From a virus: DNA of 23,389 nucleotides. The translations under genes were made by a program, and so were the position numbers. The DNA is taken from IMG/VR virus record IMGVR_UViG_3300012000_000131, positions 1 through 23,389 of that record. One strand, 5' to 3'. Below are positions 1-23,389 of this stretch, one piece after another. The notes under the pieces were generated by a model, which was given only the letters and a program-made list of their open reading frames with translations, did no database searches and was not told the origin of the DNA. Within the stretch, counting starts at the first letter, position 1, and every line of letters begins with the position of its first letter.

Positions 1-1
1 C

Positions 2-2521
2 ACGGTGGACACCCTTGTTCCCGTGACCGAATCTCCCACGGGATACGCCTTTGGGGCGGGCGGGCGACTCTACTTCATCCTCAAGCCGACTGTGGCGACC
101 TACAACACCACCACGCTGCAATGGGAACTCGACCCCACGGCGGTCTACTCTGCGAACTATGGCTCACTCCCTACCCCCGACCCCGAAACGGGCAACGCGA
201 CGTTCACGTTGACGTCGTTCACCGACGCGACGGGTGTGGCTATCAGTCAAGCCACGTTCCTCGCAGCGGTCACGCAGGGCATGACCGTCTCGGGCATGTT
301 GTACTTGCCCCTGCGGAGGCTCGCGGACGCTCTCCCGGCGAACAACTGTGTCGGGTACGCCCTCGACGCAGCGGGCAACAACACGGTGGGCGGCGTGGCC
401 GCACTTGCGCTTGGGTCAACCTTCTATATTGACCCCGCGACCCCCGGCACGCCGTATAGCGTAGTCTACGACGCCGCGACGGGGAACCTGTTGCGGGACT
501 CGGGAGGGCCGTATGCCCCGAACAACCTGTATGTGCAGGTGCCCACGGGTTCGGATAGCACGGCGTTTTACGCCGAGCGTGACCGTGTGGTGTACCCCTC
601 GGGGGCGGCACCTACTCCCACGGGCGTGGCGGCATACCTCGACGTAGGACACATTGATTGGGACGATGTGCATTTCGGGGGCGCGGTGGCGACCGCAGGG
701 GTTCTCCCCTGCTTGCTCCCCGGCGACAAGTTGGTGTTCGGGGACGACCTCGTGGCACCCACCCTCTCGGGCTTCGTGGCTCTCTCGGGCGTCTTCCTTG
801 AGCCGTCGTTCCCCCTTCCCGTGGGGGACTTGGGGCAGACTGTTCCGCATGTGGTGTCGGCCTCGTACACGGCGACGAGCACCGCCGAAGTAGGGGTGAG
901 GGACTACTCCGACTACTTCGCCGTGCCGCCTGCTTTCGGGGAGACGGTGCATTTCTATGTGCGGCGCATCCGGCGGTTCCACGAGGCGCAGCAGAAAATC
1001 GTCGGCAACTTGGAACTGCTCAAGCCCGTCTACGAGACGCGGCGCGGGCTTGTGTTCTCCTACAACACGACCACGCGAGCGTTCGTGGCTGACACGAGCA
1101 CGCCCACCTACCCGCAAGCCACGAACATCGGGGCGTTCACCGACGACATGGTGAACATCAACCCCGGCGACTTGCTGCGACTGCTCGATAGCGCGGGCAC
1201 GCTCTTGGAAGAAGCCGAGGTCGAAGCGGTCGTGAACCCAACCACGCTGCGCTTGAAGCGTCCCGGTCTGTCCACCACGCTCTCGGGCGGGGAGACGTTT
1301 GAGGTCTACTTGCGGCAAGCCCCCGTGCCGCACGAGCAGTCGTGTGAGCAACTGCTCGCACTCCTCACCGACCAAGTGCTGCTCGACCGTCGTGCCGACT
1401 ACTCCGACCTCGCGACTACGGGCGGGCAGGCGACGGCGTTCAACGTCCTGTCCGACACCGACCCTACCGTGAACTACGCGACCACGGGTGTGCAAGTGGG
1501 CGACTACGTTGTGGTTGACCCTGCGGGCACGCTCTTTGTCTCGACCGAAGAAGGGATGCGTCCCGTGGGCGACCGCAGCGTGTCCACCCGCCTCGCGGAG
1601 TACATCGCGGGAAGCCCCGACCCCTTGGACGACAACCGTGGCTTCTACCGTGTCGCCACCGACCCCGCACAGACGGTCACCTACCTTGAGGTGGACGGAG
1701 GCTCCCGCTTCGGCGGCGGGGCCGAGGACGGCTCGGACGACGTAGTGTACGGCGGGGGTGGTGCGGAGTACGCGGTGCTGCCGACCATCCACGCCTCCTC
1801 CATTGGCACACCCACTACGCCACCGGACGTTCGCGAGGGGCAGCAGTCCCTTCGGCCCACGGCGGCGAGCGTGGGTGGCTCGTTCCTCGCACGCGACCCT
1901 CTGAACTTCGACTTGGACAGGAGCATCGCGCCGTTCAGTTACCGCATCATCCGGCCCTCGTCGGTGTTCTCGCAGGACGCGACCGAACTCATCCTGTTCA
2001 TGCGCGAGCGTATGCTCTCGTGGATTGAGGAGATTAGCGGGGCCTACGACAACAATAAGGGCGGCGACTATTGGACGTTCCAAGACGAAGACCACATCAA
2101 GGACATCGGTAGCCCGACCTCGCCTGCGGACGGGTTGGGGGTCATCTCCAACGAGTTCCTCACCTCGCTCGTCGGTCTTATCGGCTACGCGCCGTTCGCG
2201 AATACCTCGGACTGCCTCTCGGTGCTCGACAGGCGGTTTTGGGTTCTCGACACCCGCCTCGACGCGGAAACGCCCGTTGGCATGGCAACGCCCTACGCCG
2301 ACCTCGTGAACGGGACGGGACGCCCCGTGCTGCCCGACCTCGTGAACGACATACTCGACAACGACGACCGCTTCCGTGCCCTTCGGTTCTCGTGGGTCGT
2401 GTTCCGCGCCGACCGTGTGAACGGAAGCCTGCAAGCCCTCACTCGGGCGCGTGATTCCCTCCCCGCGCAGTTAGCGGCGCAGCGGCAACTGCTCCTGCTC
2501 AAGAAGGGGCTTGGCTCGTAG
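2..2521 (+). CDS. Large phage virion protein, 5' end outside window
   Basis: The frame is open from the first bases and ends at TAG 2519-2521, giving at least 838 residues. A GTG at position 5 is in frame but has no visible ribosome binding site, so the true start probably lies upstream. The protein is rich in Thr, Gly, Asp and Val with alternating beta-type segments, as in phage tail and baseplate proteins. The last 200 residues are more helical and carry the blocks FMRERMLSWIEEI and ISNEFLTSLVGLIGYAPF, ending in a Gln/Leu/Lys-rich tail. No signal peptide or enzyme motif is visible. It precedes baseplate genes on the same strand, so a baseplate or tail role is inferred. I do not recognise the family. 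Confidence 0.75.
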   Translation, partial: TVDTLVPVTESPTGYAFGAGGRLYFILKPTVATYNTTTLQWELDPTAVYSANYGSLPTPDPETGNATFTLTSFTDATGVAISQATFLAAVTQGMTVSGMLYLPLRRLADALPANNCVGYALDAAGNNTVGGVAALALGSTFYIDPATPGTPYSVVYDAATGNLLRDSGGPYAPNNLYVQVPTGSDSTAFYAERDRVVYPSGAAPTPTGVAAYLDVGHIDWDDVHFGGAVATAGVLPCLLPGDKLVFGDDLVAPTLSGFVALSGVFLEPSFPLPVGDLGQTVPHVVSASYTATSTAEVGVRDYSDYFAVPPAFGETVHFYVRRIRRFHEAQQKIVGNLELLKPVYETRRGLVFSYNTTTRAFVADTSTPTYPQATNIGAFTDDMVNINPGDLLRLLDSAGTLLEEAEVEAVVNPTTLRLKRPGLSTTLSGGETFEVYLRQAPVPHEQSCEQLLALLTDQVLLDRRADYSDLATTGGQATAFNVLSDTDPTVNYATTGVQVGDYVVVDPAGTLFVSTEEGMRPVGDRSVSTRLAEYIAGSPDPLDDNRGFYRVATDPAQTVTYLEVDGGSRFGGGAEDGSDDVVYGGGGAEYAVLPTIHASSIGTPTTPPDVREGQQSLRPTAASVGGSFLARDPLNFDLDRSIAPFSYRIIRPSSVFSQDATELILFMRERMLSWIEEISGAYDNNKGGDYWTFQDEDHIKDIGSPTSPADGLGVISNEFLTSLVGLIGYAPFANTSDCLSVLDRRFWVLDTRLDAETPVGMATPYADLVNGTGRPVLPDLVNDILDNDDRFRALRFSWVVFRADRVNGSLQALTRARDSLPAQLAAQRQLLLLKKGLGS

Positions 2522-2548
2522 CCTCCCTGCCACCGTGCATGGGGAGTG

Positions 2549-2587
2549 CAGGGGCGAGGGGTAGGGTTTGCCTATACCCCGCCCCTG
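2549..2587 (+). terminator. GC-rich hairpin after the first structural gene
   Basis: CAGGGGC (2549-2555) pairs with GCCCCTG (2581-2587) and GGGGTA (2558-2563) pairs with TACCCC (2575-2580), with a GA bulge on the left arm and a GG/CC pair near a GTTTG loop. No T tract follows, so classical intrinsic termination is uncertain. The left arm overlaps a TAGGGT hexamer (2562-2567) that could be a -10 element for the next gene. The whole interval between genes (2522-2602) is taken up by this structure and the next ribosome binding site. Confidence 0.45.
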
Positions 2588-2602
2588 TCTACGAGGTGAA
2601 CG

Positions 2603-2845
2603 GTGACCCGCGAAGAAGCCCTGCGACTGCTTGAGGAACGTGGCATCCCTGTCGGGACATGGAAGGCCACGCCCGAGGGCGTCGAGGTCGAGCATCCGTT
2701 CGCGGGGCGGCAGCGAGCGTTGCTCACGCAACTCGTGCCGCTCATCGAGCAGCAGATTGAGAAGGACGTACAAGCAGTAGCCGAACTCCGCGTGGGCCTC
2801 GCCAAGATTGAGAAGGCCCGCGCACTCCAAGCGAAGAAGGGGTGA
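2603..2845 (+). CDS. Small helical protein in tail operon (80 aa), unknown function
   Basis: The start is GTG 2603, chosen because GAGGTG (2593-2598) lies just upstream at normal Shine-Dalgarno distance. The 80 residues begin with a helix (TREEALRLLEERG), pass through a short polar strand-like segment, and end in a charged helix rich in Leu, Glu, Gln and Lys that could form a coiled coil. No catalytic motif is seen. The gene ends 3 nt before the next one, whose ribosome binding site overlaps this stop, so the two are probably translationally coupled. Its size and position between two large structural genes would suit a small virion component or assembly chaperone, but that is inference only. 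Confidence 0.7.
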   Translation: MTREEALRLLEERGIPVGTWKATPEGVEVEHPFAGRQRALLTQLVPLIEQQIEKDVQAVAELRVGLAKIEKARALQAKKG

Positions 2846-2848
2846 CGC

Positions 2849-5467
2849 ATGGCTGACGCCCTCGGCACATGGTTTACCGCCGACATTGACCTCACCAAGG
2901 TGCTGGAACCCATTCAGCCAGCACTTGAGTTGGTGGACGGAGTTCTTGAACTCCTCATCGACGTACTGAACGTCCTCCAAGCCATCCTCGACACCATCAA
3001 GGCGTTCATCATCGGGCTGCTTGACCCGATTCGGTCGTTGGTCGAGGCTATCATCAACGAAATCCGCGCCTTCATCAACGACTTGCGGAACCTCGGGGCC
3101 TACTTCTACCTCGGGGACATTGCACGGATACAGTATCCCTTCCCCGAGTTGAAGGGCGGCTATGCGGCCTTTCAGCGGCGCATGTTGACGGCGTATGTGA
3201 ACCCGTCCGACCCGAAGCGGCCCACCTTCTCGTCGTCCTCGGCGGTGCTCTCGGTCTACTTCTACCTGTCCGTGCAGGTCACCGACCTCTACAAAATCAT
3301 CGAACTCGTGGTCGAAATCTGCGCGTTCTTCAACCTCAACCGCGCTACGCAGCCGTACCCCGTTCCGCTCCCCGTGTCGGTCACCTACGGCACCTCGACC
3401 GCGCTGCTCAACAAGTTCTCGACGCTCGGGGTCAGCCTCACGAAGGGGGACGACGCGGAGTACGCCCTCGTGGAGTGGCAGATGCCCGCAGGAGGGCAAG
3501 CGTCCATTGGCTCTGCTGGCCCCGCGCCGAACGGGTTCATCATCGACGTATGCACCGAGCCGAACGGCTTGCTCCTCACCGCCGACACCCCCGACTTGAA
3601 GTCCAACGCTGATGAGACGGCACGCAAGCGGTTTCCGGTGCTCGACCCTGCCGTGCCTAACGCCCCCCTGCAAGTCTACGGCGGCACGGACACCATTCGC
3701 TTCGGGTCGGTCGGGGGGAGTGCAGAGACGACCGATGGTATCGACGTAGATGCCACCTACGCCTTCTTGAGCACGACGCAAGCAGGCTCGCGCACTCTCG
3801 TTATTGCGTTGAGCGAACTCTCCCGGTTGGAGCAGGAGAACGACAAGAGGTATCTTGGACGCTCCTTCTTCGTGAGTAACGGCCTGTTCTCGGCCATGAC
3901 CTCGGGGCAGACCTTCTCTGCGGTCATTCCCAAGGACTTGCTCCCGTGGACGGGGGAGTTTGAGCGCGAGGGGGACACGCCTCGTGGTGCGCTCTCCGTC
4001 ACGGGGGAGTACCAACCCGAGACGTACTCGGTGGTCGTGCGTGCGGTGTCGAAGAAGATTGCGAACACCATGACGGCAGGTTCACCGAAGGGTGCCGGAA
4101 CAGTTCGCAGCCCCTACTACGACCTCCCTGCGTCCCTCTACTACATCAACAACGACCTCATTCGGGCATCGCAGGGCATCGGCGTCCAGCCCGCGCAGTT
4201 GGCGGGTGACTTCTCTGCGACCTCGCCCCCGTTGGAGTTGACCTTCCCCGGCCCCGTGGGTGATGTGATTGTGTCGGCCCTCGTCGTGGCCCTACTGTCG
4301 CGCAGCGACCTCATCGTCCTCGACCTCAACGAAGCCCTTGCCGACTTGGAGGCACGGCTCAACGACGGCACCGCTTCCGCAGCAGAAGAACGCTTTCGGG
4401 GCAAGCAGCCCGCAGACGTACTCGCCTCGGGCTTCGGCTTTCAGCCCAACACCGCCGTCTCGCCCACGGGCTTGGAGGTGGTCGGCTCCGATGTGTTCAA
4501 GTACCTGCGTATTTCCAACCCGACGAAGTACTACGAGACGGTTTCGCCCGCGAAGTTCCGAGGTGACCTCAAGAAGAAAATCTACGGCTATCTCTCGTAC
4601 TTGCTGCCCAAGATTAGCGCGACCCTCCCGCTCATTCAGCAAGCCGAGGAGTCCACCGGGGTGCTCCTCAACTTCAAGTGGTCGGACGTAAACAGCGCGT
4701 ACCCCGACCTCACGTTGTTGGGGTCTTTGAGTGACACGGCGACGAGCACGGGCATCTTCCCTACGCCCCGCGCCTTCCTCGCGGACAAGGGCAACGCGAA
4801 AACCGCGAACTCCTTGACGCGCTCCCCGGCGTTCAACAAGGCTCCCAACGCCTCTGCCACCACCTTCATCTACGGCGAGGGGTCGTGTGACGCGGCCCCC
4901 ATCATGTTGGGGAACGCCGCCACCAGCGGGTCGGTGCAAGTGGGCTTCTGCCGGAACCTGTTCCCCGCCGAGGTCTACGACGCTGCCCGAGAAATCCTTC
5001 TTCTCGCCGCGCCCGTGCCGACGCGCCCCGGCACACCAAGCCAATGGGCAAGCGTGCTGCTATTCCCGAACGGGTTCCCCGAACTCCTCGACTTGCTCGA
5101 CAACGTGGAGCAGTTCCTCCTGTCTATCCTCGACGGGTTGGAGGGCATCGCGGACGCCATCGTGAAGTTCATCGAGGTGTTGCAAGCCCGCATCACGCAA
5201 CTGCAAGCCCTTCTTGAGAAAATCCGCGCCTTGCTTGAACTACTCACCACGACGCTGCGGCTCGGAAGCGTCTCTGTCCTCGTGACGGTAGAGTCGGGCA
5301 CGAGCGGTGCGCTTCGGGCGTTCATGACTGCGGAGAACACGCCCGTGGACACCGACTTGGACTACGGGTTCGGCTTCGCTCTCGTCGCCGGGGGTGCGCC
5401 CTCGGTTCTTCTCGACCTCCTCTCGGCTATCTTCACCGCTTCGGCGGCGTCCTCGACCACGGCATAG
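2849..5467 (+). CDS. Large structural protein with hydrophobic heptad helices at both ends (872 aa)
   Basis: ATG 2849 follows the previous stop by 3 nt, with AAGGGG (2837-2842) as ribosome binding site. Residues about 15-85 form a long Leu/Ile-rich amphipathic helix region (such as ELVDGVLELLIDVLNVLQ and IRSLVEAIINEIRAFI). A second such region lies near the C-terminus at about residues 745-800 (such as LLDNVEQFLLSILDGLEGI and LQALLEKIRALLELL). The roughly 650 residues between are mixed beta-type sequence. The helices look like coiled-coil or membrane-peripheral helices rather than classical transmembrane spans, because charges recur every three to four residues. Possible roles are an elongated baseplate or tail component, or a protein that contacts membrane during infection. 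I do not recognise the family. Gene order supports a virion protein. Confidence 0.78.
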   Translation: MADALGTWFTADIDLTKVLEPIQPALELVDGVLELLIDVLNVLQAILDTIKAFIIGLLDPIRSLVEAIINEIRAFINDLRNLGAYFYLGDIARIQYPFPELKGGYAAFQRRMLTAYVNPSDPKRPTFSSSSAVLSVYFYLSVQVTDLYKIIELVVEICAFFNLNRATQPYPVPLPVSVTYGTSTALLNKFSTLGVSLTKGDDAEYALVEWQMPAGGQASIGSAGPAPNGFIIDVCTEPNGLLLTADTPDLKSNADETARKRFPVLDPAVPNAPLQVYGGTDTIRFGSVGGSAETTDGIDVDATYAFLSTTQAGSRTLVIALSELSRLEQENDKRYLGRSFFVSNGLFSAMTSGQTFSAVIPKDLLPWTGEFEREGDTPRGALSVTGEYQPETYSVVVRAVSKKIANTMTAGSPKGAGTVRSPYYDLPASLYYINNDLIRASQGIGVQPAQLAGDFSATSPPLELTFPGPVGDVIVSALVVALLSRSDLIVLDLNEALADLEARLNDGTASAAEERFRGKQPADVLASGFGFQPNTAVSPTGLEVVGSDVFKYLRISNPTKYYETVSPAKFRGDLKKKIYGYLSYLLPKISATLPLIQQAEESTGVLLNFKWSDVNSAYPDLTLLGSLSDTATSTGIFPTPRAFLADKGNAKTANSLTRSPAFNKAPNASATTFIYGEGSCDAAPIMLGNAATSGSVQVGFCRNLFPAEVYDAAREILLLAAPVPTRPGTPSQWASVLLFPNGFPELLDLLDNVEQFLLSILDGLEGIADAIVKFIEVLQARITQLQALLEKIRALLELLTTTLRLGSVSVLVTVESGTSGALRAFMTAENTPVDTDLDYGFGFALVAGGAPSVLLDLLSAIFTASAASSTTA

Positions 5468-6374: not shown

Positions 6375-7514
6375 GTGAGCGTCGAACTGCAAATCGCCTT
6401 TCCCTGTCAGCACCTCGTCATCGAGGAGCCTGTGGCGTTGCAGAGCGACCGTCTCACGCTCACCCCCAAAGCCCCCGTGAGCAACTCCAACCTCGTCCGC
6501 ATCCTCGCGGACGACCGCTACTACGTCCCTGCAACGGGCCTGTATTCGCAAGCGGTGCTCGTGGGGGGTACGCCGGGGCCATTCGTCATTCGCCGCTGCA
6601 CGAACCTCGTCGGGCCGGATGGGAACCTCCTCACCCTCACGACGAGCGCGGGCACCGTCGAAGTGCGCTTGCCCGTGGGCGAGCGGGTCACCTCGACTGC
6701 GGTGGAGCAAGCCATTCGCACCACGGCGTTTGACTTCGTGCAAGTGGGCACCCGCAACGGTGCCATCGTGCTCGCGGACACGAACGCGGTGGGTGTGAGT
6801 TCGTTCGTGCGCGTGCGTGGGCAGGGGGCCACGGCTCTTGGGTTCACCACGCAGACGGGCGTGCGCGGAACGGAGGTCTACCCCCCGTGGCAGTTGGCGG
6901 CTCGCCCCGATGTGTACCCGAGCATTTCGGGGGTCAGAACCCCGGTGCCCGCCCGCTACCCGAAGTTCACGAAGGCGGTCAAGAGCAACCCGACGTTCAA
7001 GGTGACCTACGCTGCGCCCCCCGAGCAATGCCCCCGGTGCCGCGCCACCTACGTCGAGAACGACATGCGCTTCGACCCGCAGGGCGACCTCGTGCTCATC
7101 GACAACGAGAACCTGCTCTACCAAGCGTGCATGAAGGCCCTGCTCACGCGGCGGGGGAGCAACTTCTACCACCCCGCCTATGGCTGCACCCTCATGGACA
7201 GGGTGGGCACGAAGTTCCTCGGGGCCGCGACGACGCTCATGCAGGAGGACGTTCGGAGTGCCCTCCTCCGCGTGCAGAACGTGCAGAAGGAGCAGTCCAA
7301 GTACCAAGTCGTCACGAGCAAGGAGCGGTTCTACTCCTTGAAGAACGTGCAAGTGATACCGGGAGACGACCCGACCACCGCGCTCGTGCAAGTGACGGTC
7401 GTGAACGCCTCGCTTGAACCCATCAACCTCTCCATCGTGTTCTCCGTGCCGGGAGCCGTCGCTCTCGCAGGGTCGAACGGCTTGTCCCTCGGGCTGCAAG
7501 GCGTGGGGCTGTAA
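6375..7514 (+). CDS. gp25-like baseplate wedge protein with N-terminal extension (379 aa)
   Basis: The start is GTG 6375, with a weak GGAGC ribosome binding site upstream. About residues 230-365 match my knowledge of the phage gp25/GpW-like baseplate wedge family: DLVLIDNENLLYQACMKALL, then RRGSNFYHPAYGC, a helix ending YQVVTSKERFYSL, and a beta-strand end PTTALVQVTVVNAS. Family members form part of the wedge around the hub in contractile tails. The usual gp25 is about 130 residues, so roughly 220 residues here are extra, with beta-rich sequence containing DDRYYVPATGLYSQAVLV. A CPRC pair (Cys219, Cys222) precedes the core and could be half of a metal site. The next gene encodes a Baseplate J-like protein, the classical neighbour. 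Confidence in the family is high; the role of the extension is unknown. Confidence 0.87.
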   Translation: MSVELQIAFPCQHLVIEEPVALQSDRLTLTPKAPVSNSNLVRILADDRYYVPATGLYSQAVLVGGTPGPFVIRRCTNLVGPDGNLLTLTTSAGTVEVRLPVGERVTSTAVEQAIRTTAFDFVQVGTRNGAIVLADTNAVGVSSFVRVRGQGATALGFTTQTGVRGTEVYPPWQLAARPDVYPSISGVRTPVPARYPKFTKAVKSNPTFKVTYAAPPEQCPRCRATYVENDMRFDPQGDLVLIDNENLLYQACMKALLTRRGSNFYHPAYGCTLMDRVGTKFLGAATTLMQEDVRSALLRVQNVQKEQSKYQVVTSKERFYSLKNVQVIPGDDPTTALVQVTVVNASLEPINLSIVFSVPGAVALAGSNGLSLGLQGVGL

Positions 7515-7523
7515 GGAACCTAC

Positions 7524-10500
7524 ATGGCAACCTCTACTCCGCAAGTCTACGGCCCCGATGGCGTGCTCCGCGAGACGGTCTACTTCTCGACTACCTTGGA
7601 GCGGCGATTCTTTCGGGGCACCGCTTCCTCGGACACGGTGGACATGCAAGTGTCCATCAACGGCGGGGGGTACACCTCTGACCCCGACTACATTCTGTTC
7701 ACGGGCAGCGAGTGGACGGTGCCGAACCCCGCAGCCGAGGCCAACGGGCTTCTTCTGCTCACGGGGGTCAACACGGTCGAGGTGCGAGCGGTGCTGCTCT
7801 CGGGGTCGGTGACTTCGGCGGCAAAGGCCACCGTGACGCTCATAGACGAAGCCACCGTGGGCATCATCGCGCTCACCCCCACGAGCGTGACCTTGGAGCA
7901 ACTCGACAAGGCGGTGCTCATCAACGTCCCGCAAGTGGTCGCGGCAGGGTTCCAAGGGTTCAACTTCTACGCATCGCTCTACGCGGGCGGCGGGGCCACG
8001 GGCTACTCCCGCATCAACCTCAACACCGTCACGACGGGTGTTACGACGCAGACGACCACGGACTTTGCCGATGTGCGCGTGGACGCCGATGTGCTCGTGG
8101 ACACGCTCGGGAACCCCGTAGCCGACCCGCTCTATTGGCGGCTCACGGCCACGCAGGAAAACAGCGACGAGATGGCGTTGCAGGTTGACCTCAACGAAGC
8201 CTACGAAGTCCCCGAGACGGCTCGCAAGTTGCGCCTGTCGGGCACTCTCTCGGCAGTCGAGAACGTGGTGGTCTACTCGTTTGAGCACAACCGCCTCGCC
8301 ACGCCGACGAGCACGCCGCCCACTATCTCCATCGGGTCGTTCGCCTCGGCACTCGCGGAAACCCCGCTCTACTACGTCGTCACGGCGGTCTACTACAACG
8401 CCACGCAGAACTTGGAGTACGAGAGCGCGTTCTCCCCCGAAGTGGTCGGCCACCCCCTGTCCATCACGACGGCCTTGGGCGCGTTCCCGACTATCTCTCG
8501 ACAGGACATCGTGCGGTCGTACATCACCGCAGTCCACAGGTCGAACCCGCAAATCAAGGTCGAAGCAGGCTCGGTGCTCCGCGACACGGTGGTTGACCCG
8601 TTCGCCTCCGAGAGCGAGCGTCTGCGCTTCGTGCTCGACTTCTTCCACCGTGCCCGCACGCCCACGCTGCTCTTGCAAGTGGACGACCCCACGGGTTCGG
8701 GGACGAGCATCGCGGTCGCCGCCTCCCCTTACAAGATTGGTCTGAAAGGAGCGTTCTACCTCACCTCGGACTCCTCGGTACAGGCACTCATCAACTCGTG
8801 CTTCGACGCCTATGCGTCGAACTTCGGCGTGGTTCGCCGTTCCAGCACCTATGCACAGGGCGAGGTCACGTTCTTCACTACGTCTCGGCCCACGGCGTCC
8901 ATCGTCATTGGCTTGGGCACGCTCGTCTCGGGTGGTGGGCAGCAGTTCGCCACGACCCGCTCCGCAAGCATCGCCCTCTCGCAGTTGGCCTCGTACTACA
9001 ACCCCGTGTCGGGCCGCTACCAAGTGACGGTGCCCGTCCGTGCCGTCACTCCCGGCTCAAGCGGAAATGTCGGGTCGGGACAGGTGCGAACCGTCGTCAC
9101 GCGCATCCCGTCCGTCTCGGTCACGAATAGCGCGGCCATGTTCGGCGGCAGCGGTGCCGAGAGCAACCTCACTCTCACCGAGCGGGTGCTGAACACACTC
9201 GCCTCGGTCGATAGCGGCACGGAGCGCGGCTACTACCAAACGGCGGCGGGCGTTCCCGGTGTCGAGTCCGTCGCGGTGGTGGGCGCGGGCAACCCTCTCA
9301 TGCAGCGCGACCTGTACGACGGGCAGCACCTTGGCGGCAAGGTGGACGTATGGGTGCAGGGTGCGAACTTTGCCAAGGTCACCGACACCTTCGCCTTCAC
9401 CTACGAAATCGCGCAGGACATTCAGTTCGTGACTGTGGGCGACCCCCTCAACCTCACGTTCCAAGCCGTTGACCCGAACCTGTCCGTCACCAACCCCATC
9501 GTTGAAGTCCTTGACTACCCGCTCGCGGGCTACGAGTTCAAGAACGCGACCACGGGCGAGGTGTTCGACCTCACGGGCGTGACCATCACCTCCTACAACA
9601 CCGTGCAGTTGGACACGACGCTCGTGCAGCCCTCGGTGACCCTCACGGACGTAGTGCTTGGCTCGTATCGTCGGCGTGCGGGGGTGGACTTCGTTCTTCC
9701 GCGTCAGCCCGTGGCAGCGGTCACTTCGGTCGTGGGCGCGGTGAGCGGCACTCTCCCTGCCACGGCTTACACGCTCTATCACCCGAACTCCCCCCTCGCC
9801 TACGGGCGTAGCACCCTCGCAGGGGACTACCTCAACGTCAGCGGCTACACCGACGATACGACGGGTGCGTTGGTGCCCTCGGGCGACACCATCGCGGTCA
9901 CCGACGAGGTGCATGTCCTCATTGGCTCCTACCCCGAGTACCTCAACAACATCGGCGCGCTCTACTACACCATCGAGGTGTGGAACGCCGACAAGACCGT
10001 GCAGTACAAGGGGCCGAACGACCCCTCGGGCGACCCCGACTACTCCATCGACCTTGGCACGCAGACCACGGCAGTCGCCATTACGCGAACCGAGACAGGG
10101 GACATTCCGAACGGTGCGACCGTCCTTATCTCCTACGCTCACGACGAGAACTTCGTCGTCACCTACACGACGAACCTCATCGTTTCCGTGACGCAGAACG
10201 CGGTGAACGAGAAGAAGCACGCGACGGCTGACGTACTCGCCAAGGAGGGCGTGAACGTCCCGCTCGACATTGAGGCGACCCTCGTGTTGGAGCAAGGGCA
10301 GGAACGCTCGACGGTGGACACCACGCTCCGCACGAACCTCGCGAACTTCTTCAATCAGTTGCGGCTCGGGGACGCGGTGCGGCAGTCAGACATCATCGGG
10401 GTCATCGAGAGCACCACGGGCGTTTCTTTCGTCGTCGTGCCCCTCGCCAAGTTGGTGCGACAGGAGGGAAGCCAAGTAGTGCAGGAGGCCCTGTCCACGG

Positions 10501-10991
10501 ACGTAGCCTACGACAGTACGCTCCTCACTTCGCTCACGACCTCCTCCGCGCTCGTCTACATCATCAACCAAGAACTCTCGACGGCGACCGTGGACGGTGG
10601 CGGGGGGTTGGGGGACTACAAGGGCGTGTTCCAAGACGAGGTGGCCCTCGACCTCCTCGCCTCGGACGCGCTGCTCACCTCTCTCGGCACGGCAGCAGGG
10701 CGGGCCTACATTCTCGGCGGCGAAGGGCGCAGCATCACGGGCTACTCCGACGACGCCACGCTCATCGCAGAGGGCTACACCACTACGTCGCAAATTACGA
10801 CGCGGCGGTTGGAACTCACCGCGAACCGTGTGCTCGTCTCCCTCGCTATCGGGGACAACCCCACGACCCACACCTACACCACCACCTACATCACGGGCGT
10901 GGACGCGGGGGCCAAGGACATTGACCCCGGCGAGGCCGAGTATCTCTCGCTCGGCACGCTGACCGTCACCTACGACGAGGTGCGTTCGTGA
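7524..10991 (+). CDS. Baseplate J-like protein (1155 aa)
   Basis: ATG 7524 has AAGGA (7513-7517) 6 nt upstream. The Baseplate J family (T4 gp6/gp47, P2 gpJ) builds the iris-like ring of contractile baseplates. Signature stretches are the early EAGSVLRDTVVDPFASESER block near residues 345-370, VPVRAVTPGSSGNVGSG near 500-518, and the late block HATADVLAKEGVNVPLDIEA followed by LFNQL-type helix and LGDAVRQSDIIGVIESTTGV near 895-985. The common length is 350-450 residues, so this protein is very long. It has about 300 extra residues at the N-terminus, with beta-domains, and about 300 between the GNVGSG and HATADV blocks. The stop overlaps the next start by 4 nt, indicating coupling. Family assignment is strong; the roles of the extra domains are not known. 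Confidence 0.9.
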   Translation: MATSTPQVYGPDGVLRETVYFSTTLERRFFRGTASSDTVDMQVSINGGGYTSDPDYILFTGSEWTVPNPAAEANGLLLLTGVNTVEVRAVLLSGSVTSAAKATVTLIDEATVGIIALTPTSVTLEQLDKAVLINVPQVVAAGFQGFNFYASLYAGGGATGYSRINLNTVTTGVTTQTTTDFADVRVDADVLVDTLGNPVADPLYWRLTATQENSDEMALQVDLNEAYEVPETARKLRLSGTLSAVENVVVYSFEHNRLATPTSTPPTISIGSFASALAETPLYYVVTAVYYNATQNLEYESAFSPEVVGHPLSITTALGAFPTISRQDIVRSYITAVHRSNPQIKVEAGSVLRDTVVDPFASESERLRFVLDFFHRARTPTLLLQVDDPTGSGTSIAVAASPYKIGLKGAFYLTSDSSVQALINSCFDAYASNFGVVRRSSTYAQGEVTFFTTSRPTASIVIGLGTLVSGGGQQFATTRSASIALSQLASYYNPVSGRYQVTVPVRAVTPGSSGNVGSGQVRTVVTRIPSVSVTNSAAMFGGSGAESNLTLTERVLNTLASVDSGTERGYYQTAAGVPGVESVAVVGAGNPLMQRDLYDGQHLGGKVDVWVQGANFAKVTDTFAFTYEIAQDIQFVTVGDPLNLTFQAVDPNLSVTNPIVEVLDYPLAGYEFKNATTGEVFDLTGVTITSYNTVQLDTTLVQPSVTLTDVVLGSYRRRAGVDFVLPRQPVAAVTSVVGAVSGTLPATAYTLYHPNSPLAYGRSTLAGDYLNVSGYTDDTTGALVPSGDTIAVTDEVHVLIGSYPEYLNNIGALYYTIEVWNADKTVQYKGPNDPSGDPDYSIDLGTQTTAVAITRTETGDIPNGATVLISYAHDENFVVTYTTNLIVSVTQNAVNEKKHATADVLAKEGVNVPLDIEATLVLEQGQERSTVDTTLRTNLANFFNQLRLGDAVRQSDIIGVIESTTGVSFVVVPLAKLVRQEGSQVVQEALSTDVAYDSTLLTSLTTSSALVYIINQELSTATVDGGGGLGDYKGVFQDEVALDLLASDALLTSLGTAAGRAYILGGEGRSITGYSDDATLIAEGYTTTSQITTRRLELTANRVLVSLAIGDNPTTHTYTTTYITGVDAGAKDIDPGEAEYLSLGTLTVTYDEVRS

Positions 10992-12268: not shown

Positions 12269-12669
12269 GACACGGGCGGGGCCACCAAGGGCCACTCCAT
12301 GTCGTCCTCGGGCGTCCACGGCAACTCGGTGAGCATGAACATCACCTCGCCGCTCGACAGGACAATGCCCTCGGCTTCACCCTTCGCTTCGTCCAAGGTG
12401 TCGAACGGGCCGAACTCGCCCTCACCGGGGACGTACACCGTCCACCCGTTGCTATCTTGCTCCACGCGAGCGAGCGTGAAGGGGGGGGTCTTGACCTCGG
12501 GCAGACGGGTCAGCACATGCGTGCGGTTCCCTGCGTCCCGCCACGGCACGGCGTAGAGGGATGCGGCCTCGGGCCATGCACCATGCCGACGACGCAGTTC
12601 CCGCAGCACGCAGAGCATGGTGTCGGGGTCGTCAAGCATGGCAACGACGGTCATGTAGCGGTCGGACAT
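12259..12669 (-). CDS. Unknown 136 aa protein with leaderless-type start
   Basis: The minus-strand start ATG (12667-12669) is preceded by GTCCGC and then a TAGAGT hexamer (12676-12681), with no Shine-Dalgarno sequence between. A -10 box this close to the start implies a transcript beginning at or next to the AUG, a leaderless mRNA. The protein is acidic, with blocks MLDDPDTMLCVLRELRRRHG, NGWTVYVPGEGEFGPFDTLD and TELPWTPEDDMEWPL. The middle block looks like a small beta-sheet module in which a value is adjusted by FGPFDTLDEAKGEAE. I do not recognise the family. It is the third gene of a minus-strand group inserted in the tail operon, 34 nt from its neighbour, and converges on the + strand gene with a 10-nt overlap. 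Confidence 0.68.
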   Translation of the reverse strand: MSDRYMTVVAMLDDPDTMLCVLRELRRRHGAWPEAASLYAVPWRDAGNRTHVLTRLPEVKTPPFTLARVEQDSNGWTVYVPGEGEFGPFDTLDEAKGEAEGIVLSSGEVMFMLTELPWTPEDDMEWPLVAPPVSYR

Positions 12670-12675
12670 GCGGAC

Positions 12676-12681
12676 ACTCTA
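12676..12681 (-). promoter_or_regulatory. TAGAGT -10-like hexamer for a leaderless minus-strand gene
   Basis: Read on the minus strand, TAGAGT stands 6 nt before ATG. This spacing puts the transcription start almost at the start codon. No TTGACA-like -35 box is visible 16-18 nt upstream. The same GGTAGAGT string appears before the partial gene at 23203. Confidence 0.45.
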
Positions 12682-12703
12682 CCTCGCCCGTGAGCGCGTG
12701 GGG

Positions 12704-13135
12704 TTACGGGGCGGGCCACAGGTACGGGAGGTCGGCAGGAAGCCCCGGCTCAAAGAGCGGGGCGTAGTACTCGGGAGCCTTCCGCACGAGGTTGGAGCGG
12801 TGAGCGCGGTGGAACGCCTCGTCCCCGAACCACGGAGGGGTAACTCCCGTCCACTCGGGGTGGGCGTCCATGAGTGCCCGCACCTTGTCGGCACAGGTGT
12901 CCATGTAGCCCCGGCTCACCCACTCCTCGCACACGGCGAGGACGTAGCGGGCCAACGCCCCCTCGTGTCCCCGCCACATGCGGGCCGCAGGGTGGTTCAC
13001 CCACCCCTTGCCCGTGTAGTTGGGAGAGAGGGCATTGAGGAGTTGCAGCCCCTCGACCCGCTGCTTGCCCAACCGCTGACGGTCAAGCACTACCGCGCTC
13101 CCCTTGTAGGAAGCGCGAGGGAGGAAGGTCTGCAT
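12704..13135 (-). CDS. MSMEG_6728-type protein, possibly related to pyrimidine-dimer DNA glycosylases (143 aa)
   Basis: The protein opens MQTFLPRASYKGSAVVLDRQ, then RLGKQRVEGLQLLNAL, GWVNHPAARMWRGHEGAL, and VCEEWVSRGYMDTC. This pattern I recall as a small actinobacterial and phage family annotated MSMEG_6728 and linked to the pyrimidine-dimer DNA glycosylase group (PF03013-like). Such enzymes start base-excision repair of UV photoproducts. The enzymatic link is recollection, not shown here. I chose ATG at 13133-13135 because it overlaps the preceding stop as TGATG and gives the family's usual MQTFLP start; a GTG four codons upstream is possible. It is the middle gene of the minus-strand group and is probably translated by coupling to the gene before it. 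Confidence 0.72.
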   Translation of the reverse strand: MQTFLPRASYKGSAVVLDRQRLGKQRVEGLQLLNALSPNYTGKGWVNHPAARMWRGHEGALARYVLAVCEEWVSRGYMDTCADKVRALMDAHPEWTGVTPPWFGDEAFHRAHRSNLVRKAPEYYAPLFEPGLPADLPYLWPAP

Positions 13136-13566
13136 CAGAAGCCCCACAGTTCACGGGGGGACGGCTCCCGGCCCAACTCCGCGACGAGGGTGCGCCGCTC
13201 GGCCATGAGGCGAGCCTCGATGCGGCGGGCCTCGGTACGAGGACGCTCCCCGTCGCAGAACAGGTTCTCGGGCGAGAGGCTCGCCTCGATGCGGCGCAGG
13301 GCCGCAATGAGGTCGGCCTCGCTGCGCTTCGCCGCCTTCGGGGCAGCGGGGGCCGCGCTCGCGCCGACGAGGCGCACGAGCGACGGGTGAACCCGCCACT
13401 TGGTGCCCGCCTCACGGATGCGGGTCTGACCGCGCTGCTCGGTCTGCTCGATGGTGATGCTCGCGGCATTCACCCGAATGACGCGGCCCTCGGTCTTTTC
13501 ACCGGAGGGACGGCCAAAGGTCACGAGGTCACCGATGCGGAAGGCGGGGGCGGTACGAGCGAACAT
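13135..13566 (-). CDS. SH3/KOW-like small protein with helical C-terminus (143 aa)
   Basis: The minus-strand ATG (13564-13566) has AAGGAG (plus-strand 13573-13578) 6 nt upstream, a strong ribosome binding site. Residues about 8-65 look like a small beta-barrel of SH3 or KOW type: FRIGDLVTFGRPSGEKTEGR, then VIRVNAASITIEQ and KWRVHPSLVRLVG. The second half is helical with the block SLSPENLFCDGERPRTEARR. I recall this combination from unnamed phage and bacterial proteins but cannot give a function. Nucleic-acid binding is plausible for the barrel. It is the first gene of the minus-strand group and overlaps the next start by one base (TGATG). Confidence 0.7.
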   Translation of the reverse strand: MFARTAPAFRIGDLVTFGRPSGEKTEGRVIRVNAASITIEQTEQRGQTRIREAGTKWRVHPSLVRLVGASAAPAAPKAAKRSEADLIAALRRIEASLSPENLFCDGERPRTEARRIEARLMAERRTLVAELGREPSPRELWGF

Positions 13567-15214: not shown

Positions 15215-18200
15215 GTGCCCGTCTACCTTCCCGGCCCCGGCCCTGCCTCCCCCTTCACGATGTACGGGTCGGGGGCATACTCGCTCATGCCCATCCCTCC
15301 TGCGGGTGGGTATGGCGAGGCTCCGTATGGGCTTTCGTCCTACGGGTCGGTAGACATTACGCCTCCCACCATGACGGGGGCGAACTCGCTCGACGGGTTC
15401 CGCGTCGAGGTCTTCTTCTCCGAGGAAATGCTCGGGGACGCGGTTCTTGTTGACCCTGCGAACTACACGTTCACGGCAACCTTCGGTGTCCCGCTCACCG
15501 CCGTCTTGGTCGCTCCCGGCACGCTTGGCCCCTTCGGCGGGTACACCTCGGTCGTCGTCACGCACTCGGGCGGCACGCTCGGCGGCGACTACATTCTCAC
15601 CGCCGCCAACATCACCGACCTCGCGGGCAACCCCATCGCCCCGGCCCCCGCGAACCAAGCGCAGTTCTTCTCGCTCGGTGACACGACACAGGCAGTTGCG
15701 GTGGCGGGTGGCGACGGCAAGACCGTCTTCCTGTCCTTCTTGGATAGCAACGACAACCCGCAAGACCTACTGACGGAAGCGCAGTTCTCCCCCGGCACGG
15801 GAAGCCTTGCTTCCTACGAGGTCGAGACGGAGTACCCCGTCGTGCCTACCGTGGACGCGGTGGAGCACCCTGTCTCGGGGGACGCCTCACAGGTGGCCCT
15901 CACGCTGACGGGCATGACCTCCACGCTCTACGACGCGGTGGTTGGGCCGTCTCGCTCGCTCGCCTACGAGGGGGACGAGGGGCTTCCCGACGCTGACCCG
16001 ACGTTCACGGGTGTCGAGGTCGGCACGGGCACCTCGGTTTCTTCGACGGGCGTGGGGCTGCTCCTGTCCAAGAGCGCGGGCGGGCAGTACGGGTGGCTGC
16101 TTGAGGACACGACGGGACGCATGGTTCCCGGCTCGACCTTCCGTGCCGACTTCCCGCTGAACCTCACGGGCACGACGTTCAACCCTGCGGTGACGGGCAG
16201 CACGCTCGCCGTCCTGTCGGTGTCGGACGGAGCGGTGCAAGTGGACGTTGGCCTTGCCGACGTAGCGGGCACGCGCATTCTTACGGTCACGAGCGGGGCG
16301 TTCACCGCCCAAGTTCCGTTCTTGTGGGAAGGGGTGGCGTTCACGCTGACCTTGCTCCGCAATCAGAAGGGCGCGTTCTACTCGCTCCTCGTGGACGGTG
16401 TTCCGTTCCTCACGTTCCCGATAGCGAGCGCGACGGGCGTTCCCCTGTACGCTCCCGGCACCGCCGTTATCTTGGATAGCGGCTTCGATGTGAACCTGTT
16501 CTGCCTCGTCGGCGTGGGGCTGACGGCGACGAGCACCGTGTTCACCTCGGCGTGGAACTTCTTGCACGGGCTGACCGAGACGTTCACGGGTTCGGGGGTG
16601 TTGGCCCGCGACCGTGTGTACACCAAGTACGGCCCGCTCGTGAAGGCGTGGGGTGACACGACCCCGGCCACGAAGAACGACGTAGTGGTGCGGGTCAACG
16701 GCGTTCCCGTGCCCGTGGCGAGCGTGAACCCCTACGAGGGCGAGGTCTATCCGCTCGTCCCCATTCCGCTGACGCCCGTGGGCACGACCACCGTGGAGGT
16801 GGACTACAAGTGGTTCGCTACCCCGGCGTTCCCGCTCGCGGGGCTGAACACCCGTGGCTTGAACCTCAATGCGTGGTCGCAAGCCAAGGGGCACACGGCA
16901 GGCGCGCTGAATCCGCTCCCGAGCACGAGCCGTGGTGTCATGCCGCGTCGGCGGTTCCCGCTCGGCGTGGTTCTTCCCCCGTACAGGCGCAAGTCGCCCG
17001 TGCGCGTCGGGCACAAGTACTACGGGTGGCAACGGGCATACTCGGCCCTGCTCAATCAGTTCACGACCCTGCGGCTGAACCAAAACCCGCGTGCTATTTC
17101 GGACGGCAACCTCGTCGCCAAGGGGCAAGCCACCCTCGTCAACTACGAGGGGGACACGACCCCGCAAGCGGCTCCGACGCCGTGGCTGCTCTTGGGTCAA
17201 GACGCCGGGGGCGTCGTCGGGGACGGCACCTACCGTGTCGTGAGCAACACCTCGGGCGGGTACGACACGGGCTTCGGCGCGGTCTACTACCAAGAGGTTG
17301 ACCTCTCGCGCACGGCCTCTGTGCAATTCGCGGGGCGTCTGACGGTCGGTGCCTACGCACCGGACGGCGTGTTCACCGGGGTCGCCTTCGGTGCCCACAA
17401 CAACCGCTCGCTCGTGCTCGTCGGGTTCGTGGTGGTGGACGGCGTGCGGAGTCTCGGGCTTCTTCGCGACCCGTCCCGCCCCGACCTTGCTGCGTCGTGG
17501 GACTTCGGGCTTGGGCGCACGGCTACGGCAGTCTCGCAGACCGAGATTGAGTTCTCCTCGACGGATTTCCCTCGTGGCTTGCAGGCAGGCGACAAACTGC
17601 GCGTGCCGAGTGGCCCCCAAGCAGGGGTCTACGAGGTAGCCGAGTGCGGCCTGTCGGAACTCGACGGCGTGGTGACGGTCACGCTCACGACCTCGCTCCC
17701 GGCCAACGTGAACACCTACGGCAACGACACCTTCACGGTGCTATTCGACATGCCGTGGGACGAGGCCGAGACGACCTTCCGCTTGGTCGCCACGTTCCCC
17801 ACGGGGGCGTTGACCGTATTCTCGGGCGGGCGTATTTCGGGCACGGCCCTGTCGCTCGCTGACCTGTCGGCGGTCGGCTACACGGCGCAGACCGGACTTC
17901 TGCTGCCCACCTTGGAGTCGGGGGCGGTCTTTTGGGGCGCGGCGAGCAGGGTCGCCACCAACACCGCTACTTGGAACTTCGTTCGCTACGCCGCCACGCC
18001 CGCGCCCGTTATCTCCACGGTCACGGGCATCACGAACCTCGCGGACATGAGCGTGCTGCCCGACGACACGGCGCAGCCGTGGTTCGTGGTCGAGGACTTC
18101 GGGCAGTCGGCGGTCGCGTCAAACCTCCTCTTGTTGAAGTCGAACTGCGCCGACCCGACCGTAGACCTCGTGTACGGCTACGGGCGGTTGGAGCCGTACC

Positions 18201-19042
18201 TGTCCTACAAGGGCGTGGTCACGGACTTCACGGGCACATTCCGCGTCGAGTCGGGGCTGCTCGGGGCGGGAGACGCGAGCCTTCGCATCTACGACGGGCA
18301 GCGCGAGGCGCGGGTCACGACCCTCCAATACGTCGAGTACGGCGGGCAGCGGCAGTTGTACTCCTTCGGCAGCGTGAGCCTGTCGGGGCTTCGCTTGCCG
18401 ACCTCCGAGGGGTGGACGCTTCTCTCGGGCAGCAATCTTGCCGCCCCCACGGTCAAGGTACATGCGCTCGACACGGTGAAGACCGCGAGCACCGTGGGTC
18501 GGTGGGGCGCAGAGGTCACGGCTCCCGCAGCCCCGGCGTTCGTAGGCAGCAAGGGTGCTATTCTTGAAGCCCGCCTCCAAGTGGCGTCCTACACGGCAGG
18601 CTCTCCGTCGCTCGTGGCTCCTGTGTGGAGCACCATCGTCCCGACCGCTCCCGGCGCGGGGGTCGAGGTACAGGTGCAACTCACGGCTACGGGGGTCGCG
18701 CTTGCTGACCGTTCGGGCAGCGTGGTCACCGCCTACCCCTTCGCATGGGGTGACGGGCAGTACCACACCTTCCGACTGCTCGTGGACACCACCGCGCTCT
18801 CGGTCACCCTCGTGGCCGACGACACGGTGCTTGGCTCTCTCGCGCTTGGCGGCTTCCCGACGACGGCTTCTTCGGGCTACCTGTTCGCGGACTTCGGCTT
18901 CGCAGGCACGGGCACGGCAGAGGTTCTGTGGGACGCGGTGTCCATCACCCCGCTCGCAGCGAACCCGCCCGTGGGAGCCGTCCTTGGTAAGACCTTGGGC
19001 GTGCCCGTCGCAGGCGGGGACTATGGCACCATTGACGGCTAA
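15215..19042 (+). CDS. Very large multidomain tail/fibre protein (1275 aa)
   Basis: I chose GTG 15215 because GAGGAG (15205-15210) lies 4 nt upstream; the frame is open further upstream, but that part lies inside the previous gene. Residues 15-45 are Gly/Tyr/Pro-rich (MYGSGAYSLMPIPPAGGYG). Residues about 48-148 fit a Big_5-type bacterial Ig domain (FRVEVFFSEEMLG ending NITDLAGNPIAP). The middle has beta-domains, the block VNPYEGEVYPLVPIPLTPVG and a basic patch RRRFPLGVVLPPYRRK near residues 575-595. The last 150 residues resemble a LamG/concanavalin-like sandwich (GQYHTFRLLVDTTALSVTLV). These folds commonly bind surface sugars or proteins, so a host-contact role is likely. The gene ends in TAA 19040-19042 in the same frame as the next gene. 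Confidence 0.8.
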   Translation: MPVYLPGPGPASPFTMYGSGAYSLMPIPPAGGYGEAPYGLSSYGSVDITPPTMTGANSLDGFRVEVFFSEEMLGDAVLVDPANYTFTATFGVPLTAVLVAPGTLGPFGGYTSVVVTHSGGTLGGDYILTAANITDLAGNPIAPAPANQAQFFSLGDTTQAVAVAGGDGKTVFLSFLDSNDNPQDLLTEAQFSPGTGSLASYEVETEYPVVPTVDAVEHPVSGDASQVALTLTGMTSTLYDAVVGPSRSLAYEGDEGLPDADPTFTGVEVGTGTSVSSTGVGLLLSKSAGGQYGWLLEDTTGRMVPGSTFRADFPLNLTGTTFNPAVTGSTLAVLSVSDGAVQVDVGLADVAGTRILTVTSGAFTAQVPFLWEGVAFTLTLLRNQKGAFYSLLVDGVPFLTFPIASATGVPLYAPGTAVILDSGFDVNLFCLVGVGLTATSTVFTSAWNFLHGLTETFTGSGVLARDRVYTKYGPLVKAWGDTTPATKNDVVVRVNGVPVPVASVNPYEGEVYPLVPIPLTPVGTTTVEVDYKWFATPAFPLAGLNTRGLNLNAWSQAKGHTAGALNPLPSTSRGVMPRRRFPLGVVLPPYRRKSPVRVGHKYYGWQRAYSALLNQFTTLRLNQNPRAISDGNLVAKGQATLVNYEGDTTPQAAPTPWLLLGQDAGGVVGDGTYRVVSNTSGGYDTGFGAVYYQEVDLSRTASVQFAGRLTVGAYAPDGVFTGVAFGAHNNRSLVLVGFVVVDGVRSLGLLRDPSRPDLAASWDFGLGRTATAVSQTEIEFSSTDFPRGLQAGDKLRVPSGPQAGVYEVAECGLSELDGVVTVTLTTSLPANVNTYGNDTFTVLFDMPWDEAETTFRLVATFPTGALTVFSGGRISGTALSLADLSAVGYTAQTGLLLPTLESGAVFWGAASRVATNTATWNFVRYAATPAPVISTVTGITNLADMSVLPDDTAQPWFVVEDFGQSAVASNLLLLKSNCADPTVDLVYGYGRLEPYLSYKGVVTDFTGTFRVESGLLGAGDASLRIYDGQREARVTTLQYVEYGGQRQLYSFGSVSLSGLRLPTSEGWTLLSGSNLAAPTVKVHALDTVKTASTVGRWGAEVTAPAAPAFVGSKGAILEARLQVASYTAGSPSLVAPVWSTIVPTAPGAGVEVQVQLTATGVALADRSGSVVTAYPFAWGDGQYHTFRLLVDTTALSVTLVADDTVLGSLALGGFPTTASSGYLFADFGFAGTGTAEVLWDAVSITPLAANPPVGAVLGKTLGVPVAGGDYGTIDG

Positions 19043-19081: not shown

Positions 19082-19093
19082 TCGCTCACGGCG

Positions 19094-20545: not shown

Positions 20546-20594
20546 CGGGCGATAGCGGTACTATCCCCCACCACCCTACGAATAGAGGCTCCTC

Positions 20595-21230
20595 ATGGCG
20601 ACCATCCGAGACACCGTTCGCCCCGCTCACGAAGGCTCGCACATGGGCCTGCACCTTCCGTTCTCCGATGGGGCGAGGGGCTTGCAGGGCGAGTTCTTCG
20701 TGGAAATGCGGGACGCCCGCACCGGGGAACTGCTGCACTCCGACCACCGCAAGAACGTCATCACGCTCGACGCGAGCATCCTCGTCGCCCTGCTGACCCG
20801 CAACCCGACCTCTCGGGCCAACGGCGTCTACATGCTCGCGGTCGGCACGGGGGCCACGGGTGCGCTCCTGTCGCCCGACGCGCCCGACGCACGGCAACGC
20901 AAGTTGAACGGCGAGATTGCCCGCAAGGCGTTCTCCTCGACCACCTTCCGTGACGGCTCCGGTAACGCCGTGGCTATCCCCACGAACATCGTGGACTTCA
21001 CTTGCACGTTTTCCGAGAGCGAGGCGGTCGGCCCGCTGAACGAGATGGGCCTCATCAGCCCTATCTCCACCAACCCGCTCATCACGAACCCGAACCCGAA
21101 CGCCTTCCCGACGCGGGACACGACGGTTGACCTGTCCCTGTACGACATCTTGGTGAACTATCTCACGGTGAGCGTTCTGTCGAAGCCCAGCACCGCCACT
21201 TTGTCGATTACTTGGCGTTTGACCTTCTGA
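20595..21230 (+). CDS. Tail-fibre/baseplate appendage protein (211 aa)
   Basis: ATG 20595 has AGAGG (20584-20588) 6 nt upstream. Residues about 30-110 contain the pattern FFVEMRDARTGELLHSDHRK, NVITLDASILVALL and VYMLAVGTGATGALL, then RKLNGEIARKAFSSTTF. This arrangement, an NxITLDAS helix followed by LAVGTG and NGEIARK, I know from phage tail-fibre or appendage proteins of several tailed phages. The end is a beta-domain with VDFTCTFSESEAVGPLNEMG and a hydrophobic final strand. It closes the second structural gene block. Between 20546 and 20594 there is a small GATAG/CTATC inverted repeat (20551-20565) that might be an operator or weak hairpin. Confidence 0.78.
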   Translation: MATIRDTVRPAHEGSHMGLHLPFSDGARGLQGEFFVEMRDARTGELLHSDHRKNVITLDASILVALLTRNPTSRANGVYMLAVGTGATGALLSPDAPDARQRKLNGEIARKAFSSTTFRDGSGNAVAIPTNIVDFTCTFSESEAVGPLNEMGLISPISTNPLITNPNPNAFPTRDTTVDLSLYDILVNYLTVSVLSKPSTATLSITWRLTF

Positions 21231-21245
21231 TTTTGCGGTAGCGCA

Positions 21246-21280: not shown

Positions 21281-21283
21281 GGT
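21255..21283 (+). promoter_or_regulatory. Sigma-70-type promoter for the homing endonuclease gene
   Basis: TTGACA (21255-21260) and TAGGGT (21278-21283) are separated by exactly 17 nt. The predicted transcription start lies near 21290, giving a very short leader that includes GAGGTG (21290-21295) ahead of ATG 21301. This is the clearest bacterial-type promoter in the window. Confidence 0.75.
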
Positions 21284-21300
21284 GCCGTAGAGGTGCCGAC

Positions 21301-22407: not shown

Positions 22408-22418
22408 GAGCCGCACCC

Positions 22419-22922: not shown

Positions 22923-22942
22923 ATCCTCGGCCCCGAGAAACG

Positions 22943-22981
22943 ACGAAGCCCTCCCCCACATGCCGTGAGGGAGGGCTTCGT
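22943..22981. terminator. Bidirectional hairpin terminator between convergent genes
   Basis: A perfect 13-bp stem, ACGAAGCCCTCCC (22943-22955) with GGGAGGGCTTCGT (22969-22981), encloses a 13-nt loop that can form a further CAC/GTG pair. It lies between a + strand gene ending at 22922 and a minus-strand gene ending at 23002, so it can serve both. On the minus strand it is followed by CGTTTCTC, a weak T-rich tail. Confidence 0.8.
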
Positions 22982-23001
22982 ACTTGGGAAGCAGCGCAGA
23001 A

Positions 23002-23100
23002 CTACTCGGCGTGGGCCGCGCTATCCTTGCTGCTGTCCTCGGACTTCTCCCCGGTGCAAGCGGAGAGGGCGAGAACGAACGGAAGCAGGTACTTGAGCAT
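23002..23100 (-). CDS. Tiny lipoprotein (32 aa) on the minus strand
   Basis: The minus-strand ATG (23098-23100) has GAGGAG about 5 nt upstream. Translation gives a lysine at position 3, a hydrophobic core YLLPFVLAL, then the lipobox LSAC with Cys15, and a polar 18-residue mature tail rich in Glu, Ser, Asp and Lys. This is the form of a bacterial lipoprotein: signal peptidase II would cut before Cys15 and lipid would anchor it to membrane. Thr follows the Cys rather than Asp, which in Gram-negatives favours the outer membrane. Phage lipoproteins of this size include receptor-blocking superinfection-exclusion proteins (T5 Llp) and outer-membrane spanins (Rz1). The tail lacks the Pro-richness of Rz1. 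A strong terminator follows. The reading frame is clear; the role is inference. Confidence 0.7.
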   Translation of the reverse strand: MLKYLLPFVLALSACTGEKSEDSSKDSAAHAE

Positions 23101-23176
23101 GGCGTCTCCTCGGTCAAAGCGGGCGGGAATGCCCGTCTATGGGGGGTCGGATAGCCCCTCCACCGAATAGCAGCGG

Positions 23177-23182
23177 TAGAGT
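23177..23182 (+). promoter_or_regulatory. TAGAGT -10-like hexamer ahead of the last gene
   Basis: GCGGTAGAGTGG contains TAGAGT 20 nt before ATG 23203, with GGAGAG between. The spacing places the start of transcription only about a dozen bases before the coding region. No -35 box is clear. The rest of the 23101-23196 gap, upstream of both divergent genes, shows no other feature I can name. Confidence 0.4.
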
Positions 23183-23202
23183 GGATACGGAGAGCCATGC
23201 AC

Positions 23203-23389
23203 ATGACCGACCGCGCCGAGTGGGTAGTCCTCGTAGACACCTCTGACAATGAAGTGGGGGTGGTGTCTCCCACCGTCGCGCTTCTACTCATGGAGAAGGG
23301 GGTCGCAGACGGGCTGTTCACGGACGGTCGGAAGTGGCTCCAACTGCGAAGCGGCCCTGCTATGGAGCAAGGGCGCATGACGGCGACCG
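23203..23389 (+). CDS. Unknown protein, 3' end outside window
   Basis: The frame is open to the window edge (62 complete codons from ATG 23203). I chose ATG 23203 because GGAGAG (23189-23194) is 8 nt upstream; the in-frame ATG at 23197 leaves only 2 nt. The visible part reads MTDRAEWVVLVDTSDNEVGV, then a helix VALLLMEKGVADGLF and GRKWLQLRSGPAME. It looks like a small soluble alpha/beta protein. No family is recognised. It is divergent from the lipoprotein gene. Confidence 0.6.
   Translation, partial: MTDRAEWVVLVDTSDNEVGVVSPTVALLLMEKGVADGLFTDGRKWLQLRSGPAMEQGRMTAT

Follow-up and report, generated by a model that had tools for sequence, protein, structure and literature searches.

A 23,389-base viral fragment of 64.9% G+C, which is the whole of IMG/VR virus record IMGVR_UViG_3300012000_000131 and is hereafter called the window, contains not a single GATC, raising the question of what removed this tetranucleotide from the genome. 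An initial annotation had attributed the gap to a host restriction enzyme of MboI/Sau3AI/DpnII specificity. We find that the window lacks at least 26 motifs, of which GATC is one; the others had been overlooked in that annotation. We consider it highly probable (about 0.87) that many host restriction-modification (R-M) systems, not one enzyme of the MboI/DpnII type, selected for the loss of sites.

Expected counts were obtained mainly by synonymous-codon shuffling, which leaves all protein sequences and total codon usage unchanged (200 shuffles for GATC), with a maximal-order Markov model as a second null. The main motifs lie far below expectation under both, and counts are written below as observed/expected, with the codon-shuffle null unless stated. 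For GATC, the codon shuffle predicts 64.2 sites (50 in the lowest shuffle) and the Markov model 30, the latter pulled down by the depletion of GAT and ATC themselves; the window has 0. The earlier claims that GATC is absent from the 23.4 kb and falls far below expectation, there put at about 70, are therefore borne out by direct counting. Codon choice had also been said to avoid GATC, with ATC not used for Ile after a G, and this agrees with the full tally: Ile following a codon that ends in G is encoded by ATT 17 times, ATA 6 times and ATC never (n = 23), whereas ATC accounts for 147 of 200 Ile codons after any other base. Similarly, Asp is never GAT before a codon starting with C (0/100 codons) but is GAT in 36 of 324 cases before other codons. 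The examples originally cited lie in frame at 2030 (GAG-ATT), 3125 (CGG-ATA), 11507 (GAG-ATA) and 13756 (AGG-ATA); a further one, CCG-ATA, is also in frame but at 16418, some 10 bases from the place first given.

The loss of GATC is accompanied by many others. In an unsupervised search for motifs of up to 6 bp, written in the degenerate code of the International Union of Pure and Applied Chemistry, the first 19 kb of the window lacked 26 motifs, 22 of them palindromic, and a shuffled window used as control lacked none. Among 4- and 5-base sites, AGCT (0/57), CTAG (0/10), CTNAG (0/34) and CCWGG (0/71) are absent. GGWCC is likewise absent (0/84-85) with GGSCC normal (80/92), as is CASTG (0/22-23) with CAWTG normal (24/22). 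Longer degenerate sites show the same behavior: GRGCYC (0/45), YACGTR (0/22) and RGCGCY (0/52) are absent, with RGCGCR normal (127/103), and RCCGGY occurs once (1/55). The interrupted palindrome GACNNNGTC is missing (0/23-24), with GACNNGTC (6/8) and GACNNNNNNNGTC both near normal. Together, the 64 six-base palindromes occur 26 times against 361 expected (329 in the lowest of 60 shuffles), and among the 28 expected at least 4 times, 23 are absent, whereas common non-palindromic 6-mers stand at 1.05 of expectation. Non-palindromic sites were also affected. CCTGA is absent (0/36) with its neighbor CCTGC raised (95/69); GGCGGA is absent (0/28) with GGCGGC, GGCGGT and GGCGGG normal; CTCTTC and GAGACC do not occur; and CCAG, though not a palindrome, is almost lost in all contexts (8/181). 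Other palindromes persist, with CATG, TGCA, GTAC, TCGA, CGCG and GCGC kept as common 4-base sites, TCGCGA at expectation, and interrupted palindromes in general near expectation in a count that read one gene in the wrong frame. Most missing motifs are known Type II recognition sites, and the edges of the losses resemble enzyme specificity, degenerate positions included. With one-base neighbors normal and several palindromes kept, the list is not what either a mutation bias or a general avoidance of palindromes would predict.

Close relatives carry different missing sets. A scan of IMG/VR for the baseplate J protein yielded 306 relatives, of which the best 80 were retained. In a family tree of 80 rows, the window and the contigs L002, L003, L004, L005 (here G001) and L008 (here G002) form one clade, with a support of 100 in the Shimodaira-Hasegawa-like approximate likelihood ratio test. 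The five sisters are 80-89% identical to the window in DNA and are represented by structural-region fragments of 5-46 kb; a sample origin is named for one sister alone, the freshwater Lake Tanganyika (PMC8245535). A core of CTAG, AGCT, CASTG, CCWGG and most six-base palindromes is lost in nearly all six, the exceptions being a few AGCT sites remaining in L004 and a few CCWGG sites in G001. The six-base palindrome ratio spans 0.05-0.16 across this clade and 0.12 to 0.89 in the wider family, with distant relatives ranging from strong loss to none, and at least seven changes are needed to place strong palindrome loss on the tree. At equal length, the window and two sisters lack 26-29 motifs, the most among 14 sequences compared.

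Beyond the core, the sets diverge motif by motif. G001 (45.9 kb, 80% DNA identity) contains GATC (45/125) and lacks GGWCC (0/141), AGCT, CTAG and CTNAG. G002 carries GGWCC (26/77), GGCGGA (17/23) and CCTGAY (13/13), none of which is found in the window. ACGT is absent from L003 (0/44) as against 89/141 in the window. These differences are seen directly at aligned positions: none of 35 ACGT sites of the window is retained in L003, none of 17 GATC sites of G001 in the window, and none of 11 (G002) or 14 (L003) GGWCC sites in the window, while TCGA, CATG and other retained motifs have about half or more of their sites in common. The window differs from G001 purely synonymously at 12 of 16 coding GATC sites, in a count that took one window gene in the wrong frame. 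One species is represented by two records from separate metagenomes; they are 99.0% identical over 5 kb and agree in motif set. The initial annotation had supposed that the phage evolved for a long time under a single system, a statement that needs care, as the missing set changes among sisters at this degree of identity. Where a motif is present at reduced frequency, as is GATC in G001 (0.36 of expectation), its sites may be returning after the end of an earlier pressure, a relaxation that we infer. No GATC position is common to G001 and L003, each of which has few, a result that fits independent regain, albeit in small numbers.

We propose that this phage lineage would have been purged, largely synonymously, of the recognition sites of many host R-M systems. 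The targets would be mainly orthodox Type II sites, comprising 4-, 5- and 6-bp, degenerate and interrupted palindromes, with several asymmetric sites of the Type IIS/IIG/III kind in addition. On infection of a host with an R-M system, a genome with fewer unmodified sites would be likelier to survive, and successive infections of strains or hosts that differ in their systems could reduce about two dozen motifs to zero. Sisters meeting other enzyme sets would lose other motifs, and once an enzyme is no longer met its motif could drift back. The host enzymes and the number of hosts are what we infer here; the breadth of the losses suggests several hosts or host strains, much as plasmids avoid six-base palindromes more strongly as host range rises, broad-host-range plasmids included (PMC10359461).

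How does this account compare with simpler ones? A single GATC-specific host enzyme of the MboI/Sau3AI/DpnII type would suffice for the 0/64 count of GATC, such enzymes being common and GATC being under-represented in each of 46 phages that infect hosts encoding the enzyme (PMC6286503). Yet some 25 other motifs are missing just as completely and GATC is present in sister G001, so that the initial annotation appears right in invoking restriction-site avoidance, the best explanation, but one enzyme is insufficient for about two dozen missing motifs. A GATC enzyme may be one among the many; as the sole driver it is very improbable. We give equally little credence to a general dislike of palindromes, arising from structure, replication or packaging, or to a mutation bias, either of them independent of restriction enzymes. 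The predominance of palindromes in the missing list and the depletion of nearly all six-base palindromes are what such a process would produce, but it would not spare the 4-base palindromes and TCGCGA listed above, remove GACNNNGTC while leaving interrupted palindromes near expectation overall, erase asymmetric GGCGGA and CCTGA beside normal one-base neighbors, or differ motif by motif between sisters with the same genes. An artefact of assembly, library preparation or the null model is barely conceivable. Expectations do vary with the null (for GATC, 30 under the Markov model and 64 under the codon shuffle), but the shuffled control is clean, the losses are substitutions at aligned positions and not missing DNA, and similar purging is found in contigs from several metagenomes. 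Some losses, especially those of GATC, CCWGG and CCAG, could instead stem from phosphorothioate (Dnd/Ssp), BREX, DISARM or methyl-dependent Type IV systems. CCAG is depleted in all contexts without being a palindrome, and phosphorothioation and Mrr have been discussed for GATC (PMC7230728); most of the list, however, consists of known Type II sites, and we regard such a contribution as rather unlikely.

Selection by many R-M systems is favored because it explains the list, its edges, the synonymous route and the sister differences. Several points weigh against it. No host, restriction enzyme or methylome has been tied to the phage, and the implied number of enzymes is unusually high for one host. 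The data comprise 23.4 kb, plus 5-46 kb of the sisters, from genomes of maybe several hundred kb. Large relatives carry DNA methyltransferases (of 18 records, 12 match PF01555 and 1 matches PF00145), which would protect the DNA in another way and so should relax selection against sites. A scan of bacterial and archaeal genomes with two conserved proteins identified no host. Relatives of the 211-aa virion protein (49-51%) were observed on two contigs of metagenome-assembled genomes, one from Spirochaetes (L122) and one from an uncultured bacterium (L123); these are probably phage contigs in the bins and a weak host hint.

By its predicted genes, the window is where a myovirus akin to huge phages encodes its tail and baseplate (Table 1). 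Among named phages, LR745208.1 (485 kb), Bacillus phage G and Tunturiibacter phage Tunturi_5 are the closest to it, and no near DNA match was found among deposited phages. Among the best 80 of the 306 IMG/VR relatives, some baseplate J homologues lie on contigs of 200-436 kb. One scan returned no relatives of a 483-aa protein, and no photosystem gene was found in 18 larger relatives. Among the loci compared, the gene that begins with a MucR-like zinc finger and has weak endonuclease matches is found again only in the 436-kb relative (42%), and it may thus encode a mobile nuclease of the homing type.

Table 1. Predicted genes and gene groups of the window.
Feature	Coordinates	Strand	Remarks
C-terminal part of a very large structural protein	2..2521	+	~3600 aa in sister G001
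Structural protein	2849..5467	+	relative in huge phage LR745208.1, 28% identity
Baseplate protein, gp25/sheath-initiator-like region	6375..7514	+	
Baseplate J / baseplate wedge protein	7524..10991	+	1155 aa; used for the family tree
Tail protein gene after baseplate J	10988..12268	+	conserved in sister G001
Three small genes	12259..13566	-	common to sisters L003 and L005
Middle small gene within the tail cluster	12704-13147	-	pyrimidine dimer DNA glycosylase match, PF03013
Large predicted structural protein	15260..19042	+	no family match
Virion protein	20595..21230	+	211 aa; common to phage G, Tunturi_5 and huge phages
Gene with MucR-like zinc finger at its start	21301-22407		weak endonuclease matches further on

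Other relatives show losses of their own. G006 (L022, L040-L044), a 289-kb relative of about 45% G+C, lacks AGCT, CCGG and GCGC and has nearly lost CGCG and ACGT; as several matches to C5 and N6/N4 DNA methyltransferases are also present, it may combine site loss with methylation. Single complete or near-complete losses were seen for CGCG in L018 (0/90) and L108 (0/73) and for GCGC in L011 (2/74), L052 (0/50) and L055 (0/88), and both ACGT and GGCC are absent from L101-L103.

The clade offers a natural experiment, with alignable sisters showing complete yet different losses, milder relatives and normal ones further out, and is pertinent to the pace at which phages lose and regain restriction sites and to the use of a phage genome as a reporter of hidden host defenses. 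We tentatively suggest that the lineage evades restriction mainly by near-total loss of Type II and several asymmetric sites, rewriting the set within ~11-20% DNA divergence, so that the set would be a readable, datable record of host defense in which some losses, such as that of CCAG, may mark undescribed defenses; this wider proposal we hold to be possible rather than probable. The sequence would then read like a record of the host enzymes that each virus survived.

Restriction-site avoidance is widespread in phages, in which Type II sites are under-represented, GATC among the most strongly, and avoidance is commonly confined to orthodox Type II sites (PMC6286503). The window departs from phages in general in that about two dozen motifs are simultaneously reduced to zero or almost zero, asymmetric sites included. 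In the plasmids mentioned above, the effect is far weaker and strongest in small elements, whereas the window comes from a virus related to huge phages. The cultivated Thermus phage P23-45 (L046) resembles the window in lacking GATC (0 of ~122 expected in 50 kb), but its six-base palindrome ratio is 0.77 and it lacks 12 motifs in 19 kb. AATT was also seen to be nearly absent from the first 50 kb of that phage (1 of ~68 expected). LR745208.1, Bacillus phage G and Tunturi_5 share homologous baseplate J and virion proteins with the window, yet no such purge is present in the LR745208.1 region (ratio 0.70) or in Tunturi_5 (0.90).

The closest precedent is the HF1 group of haloarchaeal myoviruses (HF1, HF2, HRTV-5/7/8, Serpecor1 and Hardycor2), in which GATC and CTAG are fully lost and GGWCC nearly so, 21 six-base palindromes are absent group-wide, AGCT is absent in one member, and restriction-site avoidance is likewise the published interpretation (PMC7230728). 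Membership of the window in this group was considered and rejected: its DNA matched no phage, its only link is a short 31% baseplate J match to VOLN27B, and its nearest kin are huge phages. The HF1 viruses also have other hosts. The kind of phenomenon is thus already known. The window shows the same global loss of palindromes, together with the absence of GATC and CTAG, and by the same measure its six-base palindrome ratio (0.07-0.08) is close to those of HF2 (0.09) and VOLN27B (0.10). HF1-group viruses lack 19-20 motifs in 19 kb (19 in HF2), compared with the 26-29 of the window clade, in which AGCT, CTNAG, RGCGCY, RCCGGY and the asymmetric CCTGA and GGCGGA are also lost and the set differs strongly between sisters that are 80-89% identical. 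What is new is the occurrence of this pattern in a huge-phage clade, to which it extends from haloarchaeal viruses, its breadth, asymmetric sites included, and a missing set that turns over between one close sister and another.

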